64,000 nucleotides of DNA from contig BPGK01000001.1 of the NCBI GenBank assembly GCA_026002995.1, positions 2,170,001-2,234,000 of the forward strand. Direction: 5' to 3'. A model generated the notes under the pieces. That model had not been told where the DNA came from and ran no database searches. It saw nothing but the letters and a program-made list of their open reading frames with translations. The stretch comes from Gaiellaceae bacterium. GTDB taxonomy: Bacteria > Actinomycetota > Thermoleophilia > Gaiellales > Gaiellaceae. A program made the translations under genes and the position numbers. Positions 40,104 through 49,842 of this stretch are shown here, piece after piece; position 1 is the first letter of the stretch, and each line of letters begins with the position of its first letter.

Positions 40104-43100
40104 CACGGCCACCGCCAGCGACGTCAGGCAGGCGAAGTGCGCGAGCACCCGCTCGCAGCCGCGGCCCGTAGTCCCAGCTTGGATGGAACGTCTCGAAGAC
40201 GTGGCGCAGCTGCCGTCTCGTCGAGGCCGTACAGGTGCGCGACGCAGGCGTCGAGCTCGGCGATCAGCTCCTCCTTCTCCTCGCCGAGGTCACGCTCGCG
40301 ACGGGCACGCCGACGCGCGCCGCCCAGTCGGCGTAGCGCTCGTCCACGCGGCGCAGCCGCCCGGCGATCTCCTCCACCCGCCGCCGGCAGCGGGTGGTCG
40401 CGGCCCGGGTCCGGGTTCGGGAACGAGTTGAAGAGGAAGAAGTTGACGTGCGTCTCGACGACGCAGCGGGCGTACCAGTCGAGCGGGAGCGAGCAGAGCA
40501 GGCCGAGCAGGAAGGCCTCGTCGCGCTCGTCGCCGCGTGCCGGAAGAGGAGATACGGCGCCTGGTTGACGAGCACGACGTTCGGCGGCACGAGGCGGCGA
40601 TCACCGTGCGCTGGTTGGTCCGGTTCGTGACGTCGCGGAAGGCGATCCGCGGGCGCAGGCAGGGCAGCGTCGAGGGATCGTCGTGCCAGGCGGCCGGCAT
40701 CTCCGAGAAGGCCGAGTTCGACTCCGCGAGCCGCCTCGCCGCCGCTCGACTCCTCGGACGACGACGCCGGATCCAGGCCCAGGCGTAGCGCTCACCCGTA
40801 TCGGGTTCCCAGATGTTGAACGACGAGCCCTTGTACACCGGCCAAGCCTGTCGCCCGCGATCGCTCGCGGCTCAGGTCGAGAAGCTGCTTGTCGTTGGTC
40901 GCGTGGAGCTCCGCTGAACGGGTCGCCCGCTCCAAGCCTGTGCTCATCACGCTCCGATCGAGGGGTGCGAGCGAAGCTGCAGGAAGACGTCCACGCGACT
41001 CGGCGCTCGGGAGGAGCGGGAACGACGCCGACTCCGTCCAGGCGAGAAGGCCGTCGACGGGCAGGCCGTCGGTGTCCGCAGTCCTTGCCCGCGGCGTACT
41101 CGGCGAGGCGCGGAACGGCCCGCGCACGGGGATCGTCCCGACCCCGCCTCCCGGCCGCGGAGGACGAGCCGCAACGGTGTACGCGGGCTCGGCGTCGTCG
41201 AACACCCAGCCCCCGGTGTTGAGCAAGCGTCGTGACGTCGGCGAAGCCGCCCTCGGCGAGCACCGCCTGGCGCCACTCGCTCGAGCCCTTCGCCGAGAGC
41301 GCTGAGCGGGGGAGGACGACGCCGGCCGCGCCGCCGTCGCGGGCGAGCCGCCAGAACCGCCAGGCGAACGCCTTGTAGAGGTCGGGGTCCCCCGTGCCCA
41401 TGCCGGGAAGGGCCCGAGGAGAGTACCTGCGGAGTGCGCTCTGCGTCCGCCGAGCGCTTGCTCGTACTCGGCACGAGATCGGGGCGTCGACTGCGCAGCC
41501 GCTCGATCTCCCGCCGCTGATCGCTCCTGCGGCAGCGCTTCGAGGCCGGGGAAGCGGAGCGCCCAGAAGCCGAGCTCCTCGACAGTCGCTCTCCTCCCAG
41601 GGCGGGTTGCCGAGCAGGCAGTCGAAGCCCGGCCGCTCGCGCAGGAACACCTCCGGGAAGGCGACCGGGAAGTGGAGCGCCTGCAGCTCGCGGGCGAGCG
41701 CGGCCGCGCGCGCCGCGTCTGCGTGCGCGGCGAGCTCCTCCTCGGTGACGCTGCCCGGCAATGTCGCTTCGCCCAGCCGGTGCGCGACGACGAGATCGAG
41801 CGCCGTCCGGAGCGGCGCGAGCTCCTGCTCGGCCGCGGCGGCGGCGGCCCGCGCCTCGTCGACGTCGGCGGAGGTCGCGTCGGCGATCGTCGCGAGCCGG
41901 CGCAGGTGCGGCTCCGCGCGGCCGAGGAACGCGAGCAGCGGGTCGCGCAGCACGGAGAGCTGCTCGTCGTGCGTGGGGTCGAGCGCCTCGATCGCTTCCT
42001 CGATCGTCGCGACGCCCGTGAGGCTGTTCCCCTGCACGAGGTTGCGGTCGAGGAACGAGAGCGGCAGGCCGGGGACGAAGGTGTGGATCCAGAGCGCGAG
42101 GCGGGCGAGCTCGACCGCGATCAGGTTGAGGTCGACCCCGTAGATGCAGCGTCTGGCGACGAGGCGGCGGAGCAGGCTCGAGCTCTCGATCTCGACGCCT
42201 GCGAGCGGGCCGAGCGCCGTCCGGGCGGCGGCCCGCAGCGCCTCGAGCTCGCGCTCGACCCCGGGAACACGGTGCTCGGCGAGGAAGCCCGAGAAGCGGG
42301 CCTCGATGCGGTCGACGGCGGCGACGAGGAAGTGCCCCGAGCCCATCGCGAGGTCCGCGCAGCGGAAGTCGAAGAACGCCTCGGCCGCCTTGGCCTCCTC
42401 GCCCGCCTCGAGCAGAGCCGAGATCCGCTCGAGGTGCGCCTCGAGCGCAGGCGCGAGCGCGCGGTCGAGCAGGTGCTCGACCGCGAACGGCTTCGTGAAG
42501 TAGGAGCCTGTCGCCTTGCGCGCGCCCGAGCGGTCGTGGAAGTAGACCTCGCCGGCACGCACGACCGGCTCCTCGCCCGGCTTGGCAGGGACGTAGGTCC
42601 CCTTCTTGTCGAGTGCGAGATCGATCGGCGCGAGCGAGAGCTCGGACTCGAGCAGGCCTTCGTAGATCGTCCCGAACTCGCGCACGGACAGGCTGCGGAA
42701 GTCGACCGGGCCCGGCGCGCCCTCGCGCGTGAGGTCGACGAGCAACGCCGCGAGCGCCGGGCCGATCTCGGCGTTGGTCAGCTCCAGGCCGTCGATCGCA
42801 GCTCCGGCCCGGCTGAGCGCAGGATCCGAGGAGAAGAGGCTGCCGCCGTAACGCGGCACCCCCCACTCGCGGTGACCGAGCTCGATCGCGCGGAAGAGCG
42901 CCCGCACGCGTCCCCAGAGGTCCCGCTGGGCGGGGTCGAAGTCGAGCTCGCCCGCGCGCCGGCGCTCGGCCAGCTCGACGGCGAGCCGCTTGAGGGAGTT
43001 CTCGCGGTAGAGCTCGTTCGCCTCGTAGGGAAGGAGGCCGCGGTCCTCCCCGTAGGCGACGAAGAGCAGCCGGAAGAGGATCACGAGCGTCTGCTCGTAG

Positions 43101-44152
43101 GCGTCGCCGAGGTCATGCTCGGTCGGCTCGTGCGTGCCCGCGGCGTGGCGCGCGACCGCCGTCGCGAGGGCGGGGACGGCGTCGAAGTAGACCCGGTCGC
43201 GCAAGCGCGCCCCGAGGTCGGCGGCGAAGCGGCCGGAGGACTCGAGCAGCTCCTCGAGCGTCCCTCCCTCGTCGAGCGCGCGCGGCGAGAAGACGAGGTC
43301 GAGGTAGCCGGCGCGGTCCGTCGGCAGGAGCGCGAGGTCGAGCCCGAAGCTCGTCAGCGCGCGCCCGCGCCGGCCGACGCCGACGTCTGGCTTGACCGAG
43401 TAGAGACGGATCTGCCGCCCGCGGGTGAGGACGACCCAGGCGAGACCACGCCGCTCGGCGACCGCGAGCGCGTGCGAGACGGGGCTCTGCCCGCCGAAGC
43501 GGGGCTCGCCGCGGTCGAAGTCCTCCCGCTCGTCCAGGAAGACGGCGAGCGCGCGGCGGCGCTCGTTCACGAGCAGCTCGACCGAAAGCGCGTCCGCGGA
43601 CTCGGTGCGGAAGCCAAGCGCGGCGACGAGGTCGCGGCCGGAGCGGCCGAGCAGCGGCCGGGCGCGCTCGCACGCCTCCGCCCAGTCCGGCCGCGTCGGT
43701 ACTCCCTCCATGAGGTCGTGGAGCGCGAGCAGCCCGTCGTTGCGGACGCCCGGAAGGGCCTGTTCCGCCTCATCGAGGCTCTCGAGGAGCAGCCGCAGAG
43801 CGGCGTGGCCGTCGGGCTCGTCGAGAACGGCGGCGGCGAGGCGCGCGGCATGCTCGGGCTCGAGCTCCCGGATCGGCGGCTGCTCGCCGACCGGCCCGCA
43901 GGTGACGGCTTTGCTCGAGCCGCCGTCCGGATACGTGACGACGAGCAGAACCGGCTGGCTTCCGTCCGAGCGGGTGCGCCAGAGGTCGCGCACCGCCTGC
44001 GCGCGGGGACGGGCGGCCGCGCGCGCGAGCGCGACCTCGGCGCGGAAGGAGTCGCCCCGCCCGCGCCACCAGCACTCGGGCGTCAGCCCCCACGGCGGCG
44101 CCTCGACGCGCCACGTTCGCGGCTCGCGCTCGGGAAGGAAGTCCTCAGGCAT
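40103..44152 (-). CDS. Eco57I/type IIG-like adenine methyltransferase, frameshifted in the 3' third
   Basis: About 1,350 residues when frames are joined. The intact 44152-41590 part has an N-terminal restriction-like region and an N6-adenine methyltransferase core. The SAM motif is FDFRCADLAMGSGHFLVAAV, followed by RRCIYGVDLNLIAVELARL and the catalytic LLGNPPWEE. Downstream, MGTGDPDLYKAFAWRFWRL, LNTGGWVFDDAEP, SAELHATNDKQLLDL and YKGSSFNIWEPDTGERYAW lie in successive frames. These are the target-recognition region of this enzyme class (DrmMI/PglX-like size). It overlaps the helicase as TGATG and follows the NYN gene by 15 bp. Confidence 0.78.
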
Positions 44153-44167
44153 GGGATCGACTTCGGC

Positions 44168-44773
44168 TCATCGAGTCATCAGGCCCATGACGGAGTCGAG
44201 CTCGATCGAGGCCCACGAGGTTCGCTTGAGCTCGAACCCGTGATTTGCCCAAGTTGCGTTGATCACCTTGCGACCGCGGGACTGAATCCAGTCCACCGCC
44301 GGCACGTGATCGGCATCACTCGACAGGAGAATCGCTACGTCGTATGCATCCTCGCCCGCGAGTGAGAGGAGATCCGTGACGATCGCCGTATCGACCCCCT
44401 TCTCCGGCGCCCACGTAAAGAGAGCGCCACAGTGCTGGCAGTTCTCGTTGTCGTTGTCACAAGACGAACAGTGCACCTTCCGTCCTTTCGACCTCCGCTC
44501 GCGAACCTTCACGCGGAAGCTCGGCTGGCGGTCAAGGAACGTCTCGAGCCACTGACGCAGCTTGCCCTCACTCGCTGGGTTGACGGAGGCGTAGACCAGC
44601 GTCTCCTCGAGGGAGAGAACCTCGGTGGTGCCAGCAACCTCGAGCTTCTTGCGCGCCTCATCGAGCAGTACGCGTGGAACAGCAGGCCAATCGAGCTTCG
44701 CGCCACCCGACCGCTGATTCCAGTTGAGCTGGAAGTTCCAGAAGTCGATGAAGACGCGCGTTCTGTAAGCCAT
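44168..44773 (-). CDS. NYN/LabA-type endonuclease with inserted zinc ribbon
   Basis: The 201-residue protein has a PIN-like NYN fold: Asp10 in VFIDFWNFQ, GVDTAIVTDLL (Asp128, Asp134) and LSSDADHVPAVDWIQ (Asp153, Asp155). Residues 102-115 form CSSC-x6-CQHC, a zinc ribbon inserted before the catalytic aspartates. NYN proteins usually cleave RNA. It is the first gene of the operon leading into the methyltransferase and helicase, from a good promoter inside the end of the ImmA/IrrE gene. Confidence 0.82.
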   Translation of the reverse strand: MAYRTRVFIDFWNFQLNWNQRSGGAKLDWPAVPRVLLDEARKKLEVAGTTEVLSLEETLVYASVNPASEGKLRQWLETFLDRQPSFRVKVRERRSKGRKVHCSSCDNDNENCQHCGALFTWAPEKGVDTAIVTDLLSLAGEDAYDVAILLSSDADHVPAVDWIQSRGRKVINATWANHGFELKRTSWASIELDSVMGLMTR

Positions 44774-44916: not shown

Positions 44917-45498
44917 CGCGCCTCAGGAGGGTCGGACAGACCGAAGGCGTACAGCCGCCACTGCATCGCCGTCGGGGAGACGTCGAAGCGGCGGGCGCAG
45001 GCGGCGACCGCCTCGGCGGGCGTCGTGGCTCTGGGCCACGAGCTCCGCCCACGCCTCCCGCACAGCCGGCTCCGGCATGAGGAGCTCGGCGGCGAAGACG
45101 TTCGCCTCGCGCTCGAGCGCGCGGTCGGTCGCCTCGGTCAGGTCGACCGGGCGGCAGTAGGAGGGCGCGGGCGAGGCCGCGCGGCCCTCGAGGCAGTGGC
45201 AGACCCAGTGGCCGATCTCGTGCGCGATCGTGAAGCGGAAGCGGCGAAGCGGTGGCGCGTCGCGGCCGAACGCCTTCTCGCGCGCGTTCAGGACGATCCG
45301 CCGCTCGGCGGGCAGGAGCATGCCCGAGCAGGCAAGGTCCCAGGCCTCCTCCACGCGCAGGCCGAGCAGGTCCTCCGCGATCGCCTCGACCGGCACCGGC
45401 AGCTCGGGACCGCCGAAGGTGGCGAGGTAGCGCTCGCGGACGGCGTGCGCGCGCGGCTCCTCGTACTTCCGGTCCGAAGCAGCCGCTTCCGACGTCAT
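44913..45498 (-). CDS. ImmA/IrrE-family metallopeptidase, frameshifted near its C terminus
   Basis: The protein has the ImmA/IrrE zinc motif FTIAHEIGHWVCH and the downstream glutamate region REANVFAAELLMPEPAVREA. After AELVAQSHD the frame ends in arginine-rich noise at 44923, while the other frame continues AEAVAACARRFDVSPTAMQ and WRLYAFGL, the expected family ending, and stops at 44913; a one-base indel near 45025 is implied. ATG 45498 is preferred. These peptidases cleave regulators to derepress genes. It follows an XRE-like regulator gene, its probable substrate. Confidence 0.78.
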
Positions 45499-45579
45499 CA
45501 CGGCAGACGTCAACCTACTGGACTCGTCTCGAGATGTCACCTCCACCCGAGGCGGAGTCAGCCCGCCCGAGCCGAACTC

Positions 45580-45993
45580 TTACGGCGGTCGGCCCCTCCG
45601 TGGCGGGCGCAGGCATACGAGTAGCTCGCCCTCTCTGCCGGCCCAGAGGGCGTCGAGCGGCCAGGCGGCGGGCCGCTCCCCCGAGTGGGAGAACGGCATC
45701 GCCGAAACCGCACGAGCTGACGCACGACCTCGGAAGCGGCGGAGGCCCATCCTCACCCGCATCGCGAGCATGGGCGGCGCCTTGCGCTCCTCGAGGGCGA
45801 GCTCGGCGAAGGTGGCGAGCGTCTCCGCCGACGGCGGCTGCGCGGGGACGGAGGCGAGGTAGCCGTCGATGAGCGTCACCAGTGCGTCGCGCTCGTCGCC
45901 GGCGCGCTCGAGGTAGTCGCGCACGTCGGGGTGCTCGCCGCGCGCGTAACGGGCGGCGAAGTCCTCGAACAGGAGCTCGGCCTCGGGTCTCAC
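45580..45993 (-). CDS. XRE-like regulator with RGExPDVRxYLERAG motif (copy 1, degraded C terminus)
   Basis: The N-terminal 90 residues (FAARYARGEHPDVRDYLERA, then a helical LASVPAQPPSAETLATFAEL) match the regulator at 47430-48011 closely. Beyond about residue 100 the frames are mixed, and the helix-turn-helix part seen in copy 2 is not recoverable in one frame. GTG 45993 follows AGGAG by 9 nt and lies 11 bp after a sigma-factor stub. The ImmA/IrrE gene comes next. Function is inferred from that neighbourhood. Confidence 0.6.
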   Translation of the reverse strand: MRPEAELLFEDFAARYARGEHPDVRDYLERAGDERDALVTLIDGYLASVPAQPPSAETLATFAELALEERKAPPMLAMRVRMGLRRFRGRASARAVSAMPFSHSGERPAAWPLDALWAGREGELLVCLRPPRRGRPP

Positions 45994-46004
45994 GCGTACA
46001 GCTC

Positions 46005-46103
46005 CTACAGGCGGGCGCAGGCGCGGTGCAGCGCCTGATCGACGGCGTTTCGCTTCATCCCGAGCTCGGCGGTGATCTCCTCGATCTCCTTGCGAGGGGC
46101 CAT
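46005..46103 (-). pseudogene. Sigma factor region 4 stub (copy 1)
   Basis: A 32-codon frame reads KEIEEITAELGMKRNAVDQA and ends RACARL. It corresponds to region 4 of the sigma factor at 48008-48544 (EIPEIAERIGRKPNAVHQIH). Everything upstream is missing and replaced by two small plus-strand genes. Confidence 0.65.
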
Positions 46104-46139
46104 CTTGCGTGCGTCGCGACGAGGAGGCACTCTGGCCGA

Positions 46140-46295
46140 GTGGACGAGGAGCAGGGGATCTACCGCGGCGAGGTGCTCGTGATGCTCGGCGCGCTCGCAG
46201 ACATCCGCGTGGCAGTCGACCGCATTCTCCGCTACATAGAAGGGGAAGACGATGAAGAAGAGGAGACGGAAGAAGATCTCCCTCCTGACGCCTGA
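46140..46295 (+). CDS. Small acidic protein, 51 residues
   Basis: GTG 46140 gives MDEEQGIYRGEVLVMLGALA then DIRVAVDRILRYIEGEDDEE, a helix followed by a poly-acidic tail. There is no known family. It overlaps the next small gene by 44 bp in another frame, and the same purine-rich DNA encodes the acidic tail here and a basic head there. Confidence 0.5.
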   Translation: MDEEQGIYRGEVLVMLGALADIRVAVDRILRYIEGEDDEEEETEEDLPPDA

Positions 46296-46407
46296 GGAGC
46301 GTGCCGGATTCGAGGAGCGGCTCGAAGCGCTGCTTCGCGCCTACGAGCGGGCCAAGATCGAGATCGAGACCGGCAAGCGCCCGCCGCCGGAGCCGTACAC
46401 CTCCTGA
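46252..46407 (+). CDS. Small basic-headed protein, 51 residues
   Basis: ATG 46252, after an AAGGGGAAG ribosome site, gives MKKRRRKKISLLTPEERAGF and a helical body ending PPPEPYTS. There is no known family. It overlaps the acidic gene, and its stop is 2 bp from the convergent HD-type pseudogene. Confidence 0.5.
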   Translation: MKKRRRKKISLLTPEERAGFEERLEALLRAYERAKIEIETGKRPPPEPYTS

Positions 46408-46409
46408 AG

Positions 46410-46850
46410 TCAGATCAGCGCGGCGCGCGAAAGCCAGGTCGAGAAGAGGTCGAGGTCGGGCTCGATCCCGACGCGCGGCAGGTGCAGGCGGTCGGCGTCC
46501 CAGCAGGCGCCGATCGTGGGGTCGGCGCTCGTCAGCCCGTCGGAGTGGAGCTCGATCGCGTCGCGCAGAAGCGCGAGCCGCTCGGGCCCGACGCGGAGGA
46601 CGCCGGTCTCGGCGAGCTGACGCGCGTAGGCGGCTCCGCGCGGCCCGTGCCCGGGGTCGTAGTGCTCGTTCTCGCGGCGGCTGTCGTCGAGGAGCCCGAA
46701 CCGGAAGACGAGCGCGCGGTCGCGGCCGGGAAGCCCGTCGGCGAGCGAGAGCCCCGTGGCGGCGGCGCAGCGCCAGTGCTCCTCGCCGTGCCGGGCGGAG
46801 TCGCGCGAGCGAGCAGGGCTCCGTGCCCGAGCTCGTGCGACGCGCGCTCT
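46410..46850 (-). pseudogene. HD-superfamily protein lacking the HD histidine, 5' end unclear
   Basis: A single frame carries RHGEEHWRCAAATGLSLADG, VFRFGLLDDSRRENEHYDPG, HGPRGAAYARQLAE and TIGACWDADRLHLPRVGIEP, the pattern of small HD hydrolases. The usual HD doublet (LLHDSRREN) reads DD here. No start codon is found in frame before the domain, so the 5' end is missing or frameshifted. Probably inactive. Confidence 0.55.
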
Positions 46851-46903: not shown

Positions 46904-47122
46904 CTACGCGACGCTGAGCGTGAGCGTCTCACGCGTCGCGCCGGCGCTGATGCTCGCTCGCTCCTCGGAGGTGAGAGATCGAAGCCACTCGTCGAGGGCA
47001 TCGCGTACGAGCTCGCGCGCCTCCTCGAGCGTGGGGGCGCACGTGATCACGCCCGGGAGCTCTTCCACCGTCGCGCGCACCCAACCTTCCTCGTCCGGCT
47101 CGAAGAGAACGTGCAGCTCCAT
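46904..47122 (-). CDS. HicB-like antitoxin
   Basis: The 72-residue protein has the partial RNase-H-like HicB core: VLFEPDEEGWVRATVEELPG then TLEEARELVRDALDEWL. ATG 47122 was chosen, and 47155 is possible. The matching HicA-like gene is on the opposite strand 47 bp away, an unusual divergent layout. Confidence 0.75.
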   Translation of the reverse strand: MELHVLFEPDEEGWVRATVEELPGVITCAPTLEEARELVRDALDEWLRSLTSEERASISAGATRETLTLSVA

Positions 47123-47169
47123 CGCCCTCACAGGGTACTGGCCCGCATGGCGCACGCGATACTCCGCCC

Positions 47170-47362
47170 GTGACCGCGCTTCGCGAGCTCGAGCGGCATC
47201 TACGCGAGCACGGCTGCGAACGCGTACGGCGCGGCGCGAAGCATGACGTCTGGCGGAGTCCAGGAGCGGAGCGCCCTGTCACGGTGCCACGCCATCGCGA
47301 GATCCCGTTCGGGACGGCGCGCGATCTGCGGTCAGCTCGGGGTGCTCGACCCGCCCCGCTGA
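47170..47362 (+). pseudogene. HicA-like toxin with a one-base frameshift
   Basis: GTG 47170 begins VTALRELERHLREHGCERVR and continues to TVPRHREIPFGTAR, a HicA double-stranded-RNA-binding-like toxin with its catalytic-type histidine. The family ending AICGQLGVLDPPR lies in the next frame, stopping at 47362; the break falls in a GCGCGCG run near 47320. One base removed or added would restore 63-64 residues. Confidence 0.7.
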
Positions 47363-47429
47363 CCCACCGCACTCTCGCCGCAGGGGCGGCCTCGGGCAGG
47401 GTGCGAGCAGAGCACATCCAGCTCTTCCG

Positions 47430-48011
47430 TCAGTCCGCGCCCGTAAACAGCCTATCCACCTCGTCCGGCGGCTCTTCGGGCGCGGCGGGAGCGGCCGCGG
47501 CGGCGGGCGGCGGCGGCGCGGTGACGGCGTCCGCGTCGGCTCGCCGGAACGCCGCCTCGGCGGCGAGCGGCGCCGGCCGGACGCCCGCGAGCGCGCGCAC
47601 GTCCGCGTGCAGGAGCTCGCCGAGCGCGTCCCAGACGGAGCGGTCGACCGGCTCGGGGTCGAGGAGGCCGCCCTCGAGCCGGTGGTAGTAGGAGGCGACC
47701 TTCGCCTCCTTCGCAGGATCGAGCCCGAGCGCGCGCACGAGCGCCCCGACCACCGCCTGGCGCGTGAGCCTGCGGCGCAGGCGGAGGACGAGGACGGGCG
47801 GCTGGCGCTCGAGGCTCGCGTGCAGGAGCACGAGCTCCTCCTCGGTCGGCTGCCGCGCCGGGGCGGCTTCCAGGAAGCGGTCGATGAGGCGGCCGAGGGC
47901 CTCCCGCTCGGCGCCCGCGCGCTCGAGGTACGCGCGCACGTCGGGCGCCTCCCCGCGCACGTAGGCGAGCGCGAACTCGTCGAACAGGCGCTCCACGGAG
48001 GGCTCGGTCAC
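47430..48011 (-). CDS. XRE-like regulator with RGExPDVRxYLERAG motif (copy 2)
   Basis: The 193-residue protein has an N-terminal helical module (LALAYVRGEAPDVRAYLERA-type segment, residues about 5-75), a likely helix-turn-helix/XRE-like region (VVGALVRALGLDPAKEAKV, then EGGLLDPEPVDRSVWDALG, about 95-145), and an Ala/Pro-rich tail. I know no named family. The GTG start overlaps the sigma factor stop (GTGA). I infer a factor that controls or sequesters that sigma factor. Confidence 0.65.
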   Translation of the reverse strand: MTEPSVERLFDEFALAYVRGEAPDVRAYLERAGAEREALGRLIDRFLEAAPARQPTEEELVLLHASLERQPPVLVLRLRRRLTRQAVVGALVRALGLDPAKEAKVASYYHRLEGGLLDPEPVDRSVWDALGELLHADVRALAGVRPAPLAAEAAFRRADADAVTAPPPPAAAAAPAAPEEPPDEVDRLFTGAD

Positions 48012-48544
48012 GTCGCCTCCCTGCGCAGCTTCGTGAGCGCGCGGTGGTGGATCTGGTGCACGGCGTTCGGCTTGCGGCCGATCCGCTCCGCGATCTCCGG
48101 GATCTCGAGCCGCTCCTGGTAGCGCAGGCGGAGCACGAGCTGCTCGAGCTCGGTCAGGGCCGCGAGCAGGGCCTCGAAGGCGGAGTCGTCCTCGAGCCCG
48201 GAGGAGGCGTCCGAGGCGGCTCGCTCGAGCCACTCGTCGAGGCCGACCTCCGCGACGCGCCCGGGGGAGAAGTGCTCCTTGATCTTCCACGTGGTCACCT
48301 GGTGCACGACCACGCGGAAGGGGACGCGGTAGCGGCGGCCGCGCGCGAGCTCGGAGAGGAGGCGGATGGCGACCTCGCCGGCGACCGCGATCGCCTCGTC
48401 CTCGCGCCGCAGGCGCGCGCGGCAGCGGTCGAGGATGACGCCGTAGTAGCTCTCGACGAGCCCCTTGTGGTCGCCTTCCTCGAGCCGCCTGCGATCGTCG
48501 GCGTCTCGCGCATCGTGCATCGAGGAGACAGTCGTCTCGGCCAC
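48008..48544 (-). CDS. ECF-like RNA polymerase sigma factor
   Basis: The 178-residue protein has a sigma-70 region 2-like N-terminal half (LVESYYGVILDRCRARLRRE) and a region 4 helix-turn-helix (LRLRYQERLEIPEIAERIG, then RKPNAVHQIHHRALTKLRRE). GTG 48544 stands 6 nt after a TAAGAT box, so it is probably leaderless. It is cotranscribed with the RGExPDVR regulator and is duplicated as a stub at 46005-46103. Confidence 0.75.
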   Translation of the reverse strand: MAETTVSSMHDARDADDRRRLEEGDHKGLVESYYGVILDRCRARLRREDEAIAVAGEVAIRLLSELARGRRYRVPFRVVVHQVTTWKIKEHFSPGRVAEVGLDEWLERAASDASSGLEDDSAFEALLAALTELEQLVLRLRYQERLEIPEIAERIGRKPNAVHQIHHRALTKLRREAT

Positions 48545-49184: not shown

Positions 49185-49580
49185 CTACGGGCGCAGCTCG
49201 ACGAAGCCGGCGGCGGCGAAGTCGCCGTCGAAGGCGAGCGCCTCCCGGATCCGCAGCCTGCGCATGAGCGCGAAGCTCGTCGCGTCCACGAAGGAGTACG
49301 GCCGCTCGTCGTGCCGCCGCAACCACTCCCATGCCTCGGCCTCGACATCGCCGTCCACGCGCTCGACGACCACGGGGGCGGCGCGCAGGCTGTCCACCCA
49401 GCGGATCGCTCGTCGGTGGCCCGCGCGCCTCGCCAGGAGTGTCCACGTCTCGCCGAGAACGAGGTTCGAGGTCACGACCCGTTCACCGGGGAGGCGCGCG
49501 GCGAGCTCCATCGCCTCCGCGTGCCGCCGGTCGCGGGCTATCGCTCGGGCGTACCAGAACGACGTGTCAGCGAAGGCCAC
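49185..49580 (-). CDS. PIN-domain (VapC-like) ribonuclease toxin
   Basis: The 131-residue protein has the PIN acidic residues: Asp in FADTSFWYA near the start, Glu in SNLVLGETWTLLA, and Asp in YSFVDATSFALM and AFDGDF. GTG 49580 follows GGAGGAG closely and lies inside the antitoxin gene, giving a 43-bp overlap. It is an RNase toxin paired with the upstream ribbon-helix-helix protein. Confidence 0.85.
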   Translation of the reverse strand: MAFADTSFWYARAIARDRRHAEAMELAARLPGERVVTSNLVLGETWTLLARRAGHRRAIRWVDSLRAAPVVVERVDGDVEAEAWEWLRRHDERPYSFVDATSFALMRRLRIREALAFDGDFAAAGFVELRP

Positions 49581-49810
49581 GCCTCCTCCGAGATCGGGCC
49601 GTACAGGAACTCGTCGATGTCCTCGACCGGCTCGACGTCGTCGAAGACGGGTAGTTGAGTCAGGCAGTTGTCGAACGGCTCGGACAGCTCCCGCTGCAGG
49701 GCCTCGCGAACGAGCGCGCTCTTGGACATGCCGCGCGCCGCCGCCTCCTGCTCGAGACGGTCGTCGAGCTCGGGGTCGATCACGACCTGGATCCGTCGCA
49801 TCCGCGCCAT
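49538..49810 (-). CDS. Ribbon-helix-helix antitoxin
   Basis: The 90-residue protein starts RIQVVIDPELDDRLEQEAAA then RGMSKSALVREALQREL, a clear RHH DNA-binding module (residues 5-45). The C-terminal half (FDDVEPVEDIDEFLYGPI) would block the PIN toxin. The ATG directly abuts a perfect palindrome, so autorepression is very likely. Confidence 0.85.
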   Translation of the reverse strand: MARMRRIQVVIDPELDDRLEQEAAARGMSKSALVREALQRELSEPFDNCLTQLPVFDDVEPVEDIDEFLYGPISEEAWPSLTRRSGTPER

Positions 49811-49842
49811 GGTTACACACTAGCATGCAAGAGTGTGTAACC
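49811..49842 (-). promoter_or_regulatory. Palindromic operator-promoter of the RHH/PIN pair
   Basis: GGTTACACACT (49811-49821) and AGTGTGTAACC (49832-49842) are exact complements around a 10-nt spacer containing GCATGC. On the minus strand TAGTGT (49822-49817) lies 6 nt before the antitoxin ATG, so the operator covers the -10 region of a leaderless promoter. Confidence 0.7.

Follow-up and report, generated by a model that had tools for sequence, protein, structure and literature searches.

To our knowledge, it is rare outside viruses for an out-of-phase overlap to be demonstrably selected in both reading frames. Translationally coupled bacterial genes typically overlap by a few nucleotides, and in type II toxin-antitoxin operons the antitoxin gene usually comes first. 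In mammals, the GNAS gene yields XLalphas and ALEX, products of overlapping frames of one transcript that reportedly bind to one another in vitro (excerpt of PMC2671723). The genetic code is described as tending to give negative tracts a positive charge when they are read in another frame, with frameshifted repeats being read as Arg-rich (excerpt of PMC12871928).

The locus described here lies in a window of 64,000 nucleotides (the whole stretch of DNA analysed, G000:C1:2170001-2234000) from a single-contig Gaiellaceae genome of 2.62 Mb. It contains two genes on the same strand, designated A and B; B is read in the +1 frame relative to A. The original prediction had been of two overlapping 51-residue genes whose acidic tail and basic head are spelled by one purine tract, and both the sequence and its translations match this. 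The pair is real, a repeatedly conserved two-gene unit, and the observation is stronger than when first stated. The features of the locus are as follows.

46005-46130, minus strand: sigma-70-type gene reduced to its region 4.2 end (Sigma70_r4_2, E 1e-4); divergent neighbour of A, outside the pair
46105-46110, plus strand: -35 element TTGCGT, within the conserved block GGCCATCTTGCG (46098-46109)
46128-46133, plus strand: -10 element CACTCT, separated by 17 nt from the -35 element and lying exactly 6 nt before the GTG of A; predicted leaderless mRNA
46140-46295, plus strand: gene A, GTG start, 51 aa, VDEEQGIYRGEVLVMLGALADIRVAVDRILRYIEGEDDEEEETEEDLPPDA; amphipathic helix (model residues 9-33), then acidic disordered tail
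46240-46248, plus strand: purine stretch AAGGGGAAG within A, a weak Shine-Dalgarno sequence for B with a match of only 4 nt in the window copy
46252-46295, plus strand: dual-coding overlap of 44 nt, Asp/Glu in A and Lys/Arg in B
46252-46407, plus strand: gene B, ATG start, 51 aa, MKKRRRKKISLLTPEERAGFEERLEALLRAYERAKIEIETGKRPPPEPYTS; basic head, then long helix (model residues 14-40)

The frame of A is open upstream as far as 45882 among the ORFs of the window. Because there is no upstream stop near the GTG, the start of A was placed by its homologues and by the position of the promoter. AlphaFold2 models (built from five rows, a small alignment depth; single helices hold no fold information) consisted of a helix at residues 9-33 and a low-confidence tail for A (mean pLDDT 77.9), and of helices at residues 3-10 and 14-40 with a basic head for B (mean pLDDT 75.9).

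The search of small-protein families proposed beforehand was run for both genes and no known family was found. Only isolated weak matches, and no family for A or B, came from Pfam, NCBIfam, PHROGs, PADLOC (A only) and PDB sequences. The PADLOC search, performed for A only, returned one weak match in one of 35 members of A, which does not qualify the gene as anti-phage. In NCBIfam, B scored 15.6 bits against Avs1c, for which the cut-off is 70, and one of the 36 B members matched. No description of the pair was found by full-text search of the literature. Judged by these libraries, in which neither has an entry, A and B appear to be new protein families.

The distribution of the unit was assessed with searches of increasing breadth. 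With the A protein of the window as query, 22 of 61 genomes gave matches at E ≤ 1, with G003 as the best relative (5e-14). A 14-row profile of A matched 44 of the 103 genomes of the window's family at E ≤ 0.01, and B matched 42 of the 103. As only 16 of the 35 good-quality family genomes have a match to this A profile, the absence of A is real in many genomes. A 35-row profile gave matches in 44 of 129 genomes of the order, 35 of 299 of the class and 2 of 296 of the phylum, and in these three sets no A match outside the window's family was found among the matches listed.

Of the 59 match rows obtained with the 14-row profile, 52 were examined for B, and a +1-frame B ORF starting within the tail of A was found in 49. 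In the remaining three (L121, L130 and L139) the acidic-tail frame and B are both kept and the front of A is in a different frame. Five of the other seven rows were read separately (L262-L266); G084:C10 is covered only via its +1-frame B match and G088:C27 (E 0.0045) was left out of the check. In a deduplicated HMM scan of the loci all 63 distinct A copies carry B, 60 in the +1 frame and three with A frame-shifted; a B profile match was obtained in 58 (55 in +1, three in other frames through frameshift) and B was read by eye in five. The overlap measures 11 to 80 nt as scored, with a mode of 29 nt (15 copies); an extra upstream ATG accounts for the longest of these, and with the start placed beside the Lys/Arg head the range narrows to 11-59 nt. 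Conservation of the overlap had been proposed beforehand as the check, with conservation of neither frame as the refuting outcome, and both frames were found to be conserved. These results establish the restriction of the unit to one family, its conservation and its anatomy.

Upstream of A, a consensus of TTGCGC, 17 nt, CACNNT, 6 nt and the start codon was recognised. A promoter score of at least 10 was reached in 27 of 51 A copies, compared to 14 of 765 displaced controls, in a test that is partly circular since the consensus came from the same loci. The other 24 copies, about half, scored below 10 and have no strong promoter. In its strict form the promoter occurs at 13 A starts and at no other site in 466 kb, and conservation extends to columns outside the score (C at -39 in 24 of 26 copies, C at -36 in 20 of 26); the subfamily of G003 and G008 is without the CTTGCG box. 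A general housekeeping promoter was rejected as an explanation, given that the 11-mer GCCATCTTGCG shows no genome-wide enrichment over its reversed control and that the strict form is located only at A starts.

A Shine-Dalgarno match of at least 5 nt precedes B in 36 of 48 copies and A in 2 of 48, and in most relatives the core before B is GGAGG or similar. The 27 copies with a strong promoter, the window copy included, have it at the spacing typical of a leaderless gene, in which 6-7 nt separate the -10 element from the start codon and a Shine-Dalgarno sequence is absent. As read from these signals, A would be leaderless and B Shine-Dalgarno-led on one mRNA. Among 49 sequences downstream of B, a T-run terminator was possible in one case, and Rfam gave no match at 45900-46600. 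In two related copies, L111 and L125, a tRNA-like sequence (tRNA-Ser by eye) directly follows B.

Both reading frames were analysed for selection. Over 42 non-independent pairs, which share members, pS was 0.51 and pN 0.22 in the A-only parts, where the first, second and third codon positions differed 349, 290 and 648 times; the B-only parts gave a pS of 0.63 and a pN of 0.29, with 427, 429 and 816 differences. In ten hand-picked pairs the differences by codon position were 75:53:142 in the A-only parts (1051 nt), 70:80:167 in the B-only parts (1109 nt) and 9:13:23, counted in the frame of A, in the overlap (281 nt). The freest site of the overlap is the wobble position of A, which is the second position of B (GAA/GAG in the former being Lys/Arg in the latter), and the most constrained is the wobble position of B, the G of GAN at the first position of A, with 9 of the 45 differences. 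Both frames are thus conserved and selected inside as well as outside the overlap, which makes A and B a same-strand overlapping protein-coding pair. In the pS/pN, codon and Shine-Dalgarno tests B was assumed to begin at whichever ATG came last while still overlapping A by 20 nt or more, a rule that probably picks the wrong start in a few copies (e.g. L131 and L133). The promoter and codon tests exclude L143, for which the scan reached no start of A.

The codon choice in the overlap is unusual. The arginines of B are encoded by AGR and CGN in a ratio of 51:21 inside the overlap and of 30:377 outside (p 1e-30, 48 cassettes). In the frame of A, 283 of 409 residues in the overlap are Asp or Glu, against 165 ± 6.5 when the codons of B are redrawn from ordinary usage. 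The glutamates of A are GAA rather than GAG inside the overlap (140:61, versus 66:155 outside), so that B receives lysine rather than arginine. The opposite charge as such is automatic, because GAR codons read in +1 give ARG and poly-Glu must therefore spell Lys/Arg; with the codons of A redrawn, 215 ± 4 Lys/Arg are expected in the frame of B and 207 are observed. Unlike the opposite charge, the preference for Lys in B does not follow automatically from the code. Selection acts on the shared tract in both frames: A stays acidic, and B stays basic and prefers Lys.

The two genes differ in their turnover. A is broken with B intact in about nine copies, by an in-frame stop or frameshift in L112, L121, L130 and L139 and by loss or decay in L248, L250, L251, L255 and L260, whereas B is broken with A intact in none of 63. 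Two fragments of B without A were also found (L253 and L256). The asymmetry suggests that B carries the function that is retained, sequencing errors in the metagenome-assembled genomes being a caveat. From the copies without intact A, some of which such errors may account for, B does not seem to depend strictly on A. In L121 (G010:C50), A and B form one fused ORF of 85 aa through a one-base slip before the tail. This was not accepted as a fusion gene; the acidic tail persists in another frame, and the slip may be natural or an assembly error.

We favour the following reading, with a probability of roughly 55%: the unit is a lineage-specific cassette, confined to one family of the class Thermoleophilia, of two co-translated small helical proteins that most likely bind each other and of which B is the essential partner. 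One promoter would give a leaderless mRNA on which A starts at or next to the 5' end. B would start within the acidic tail of A, its ribosome-binding site also being spelled by the Leu-Glu-Asp-Asp codons of A, and the anatomy suggests that it is made together with A by translational coupling. The helix and acidic tail of A and the basic head and helix of B could then form a putative complex through helix pairing and the complementary charged segments, in which A may shield or tune B, the partner that must be kept. We infer leaderless transcription, translational coupling, complex formation and B as the primary effector. The opposite charge lends no support to binding, because it is forced by the code. 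A more tentative idea, to which we give less credence than to its opposite, is that the code itself makes matched partners: one purine tract would specify a negative tail and a positive head, whose charges would automatically remain matched through changes in tract length and through mutations from GAA to GAG or back.

The same retention of B, seen in the roughly nine copies lacking an intact A and never reversed, would also be expected if A were mainly an upstream coding region delivering ribosomes to B, the sole product that matters, and the position of the Shine-Dalgarno sequence of B within A fits such a regulatory leader. We consider this unlikely, however, as the helix part of A is under purifying selection at the amino-acid level and the acidity of the tail is kept through rare AGR codons in B up to the stop of A, none of which a mere leader needs.

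The neighbourhood of the unit bears on a second alternative, a toxin-antitoxin module in the usual overlapping tandem order, with one harmful protein and a neutralising partner. Across 41 neighbourhoods no constant partner gene or operon was found, the commonest neighbour cluster being present in six, which look like orthologous places adjoining an RNA methyltransferase gene. At one place in the genus, in G003 and G008, the unit lies between genes that are RNA-methyltransferase-like and membrane-protein-like as read from their sequence. The same place is without the unit in G010 and G006, where the flanking genes are about 27 nt and about 149 nt apart, respectively; from this presence and absence, the whole unit comes and goes. 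No convincing inverted or direct repeats of mobile-element ends were found flanking three copies. A small, patchy (44 of 103 genomes) and autonomous cassette of overlapping tandem genes, with variable neighbours and present or absent at one site, would suit a toxin-antitoxin module, and if A were the toxin, its loss in some copies would make sense, as would the finding that B is never lost by itself. Against this, neither Pfam nor NCBIfam linked A or B to a family of toxins or antitoxins, the two have no DNA-binding domain, no relatives of A were found in collections of phages, plasmids and viral contigs, and the dispensable gene comes first here, the usual place of the antitoxin. This alternative is accordingly judged improbable.

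Selection at the level of the nucleic acid has a slim chance of explaining the overlap. The purine tract would serve to bind ribosomes or to keep the mRNA weakly structured where B starts, the acidic tail being a by-product; the tract does come after the Shine-Dalgarno sequence, and GAA instead of GAG lowers the GC content near the start of B. This is already disfavoured by a control at equal distance from the start: codons 6-14 of B have AGR and CGN in a ratio of 17:13 where they lie inside the overlap and of 3:31 where they lie outside it. The bias ends at the stop of A and is not a general start-of-gene effect. The third position of B is, in addition, the most constrained site of the overlap. 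Chance ORFs, although long spurious ORFs are common in this GC-rich DNA, are ruled out for practical purposes by the conservation of both frames, the codon-position bias, the promoter and the Shine-Dalgarno sequence; it is the conservation and codon choice, not the charges, that exclude chance.

The original prediction also placed the pair where the first of two sigma gene copies had been lost. A sigma gene with a small gene downstream does occur twice in the window (47430-48544 and 45580-46130), only the region-4 end remains of copy 1, and the promoter of A sits on the broken edge of this remnant. In the sister genome G003, however, the homologue of the pair (L177 3798-4094) directly adjoins a block (L177 3510-3805) that is 79% identical to the N-terminal half of the intact sigma gene of the window (48008-48544). 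The pair was thus probably a divergent neighbour of a sigma gene in the genus and not its replacement, a claim that finds no support as it was worded. The sigma neighbour is not general, this cluster being present only in the window and L177 among the 41 neighbourhoods.

Several other genes were seen around the locus. Just downstream, at 46904-47340, a HicB-like gene (UPF0150) on the minus strand and a HicA-toxin-like gene on the plus strand (ORF 47170-47688) are arranged divergently. A CopG-type ribbon-helix-helix gene (49538-49810) and a PIN-domain gene (ORF 49185-49826), both on the minus strand, were read as a VapBC/FitAB-like toxin-antitoxin pair. At 40601-44773, an Eco57I-type restriction-modification methylase ORF, whose C-terminal part looks frame-shifted, adjoins an NYN-domain gene, and a Peptidase_M78 (ImmA/IrrE-type) gene is next, at 44923-45546.

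With dozens of diverged natural copies in one family, the rules of dual coding become readable from the alignment, the glutamate wobble of one protein being the Lys/Arg choice of its partner. The unit also yields two protein families and a sharp predicted leaderless promoter for a poorly studied lineage.

Upon comparison with described systems, A and B resemble type II toxin-antitoxin operons in being small, tandem, overlapping, patchy and autonomous, but differ in having no family match or recognisable DNA-binding or toxin domain, and in that the first gene is lost and not the second. As in translationally coupled operon genes of bacteria, B has its start and Shine-Dalgarno sequence within A on the same strand; unlike typical coupled genes, the two overlap by 11-59 nt, with coding selection in both frames and complementary charge. 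While the frameshifted Arg-rich repeats represent a tendency of mutated repeats, both frames are conserved genes here. The likeness to XLalphas and ALEX lies in two proteins from overlapping frames of one, here predicted, transcript; those are eukaryotic and large, whereas A and B are tiny and bacterial, share a short overlap of tail and head and form a multi-copy lineage-specific family. If the products bind, the pair would be a bacterial counterpart of XLalphas/ALEX in which the overlap keeps the partners electrostatically matched by a simple mechanism.
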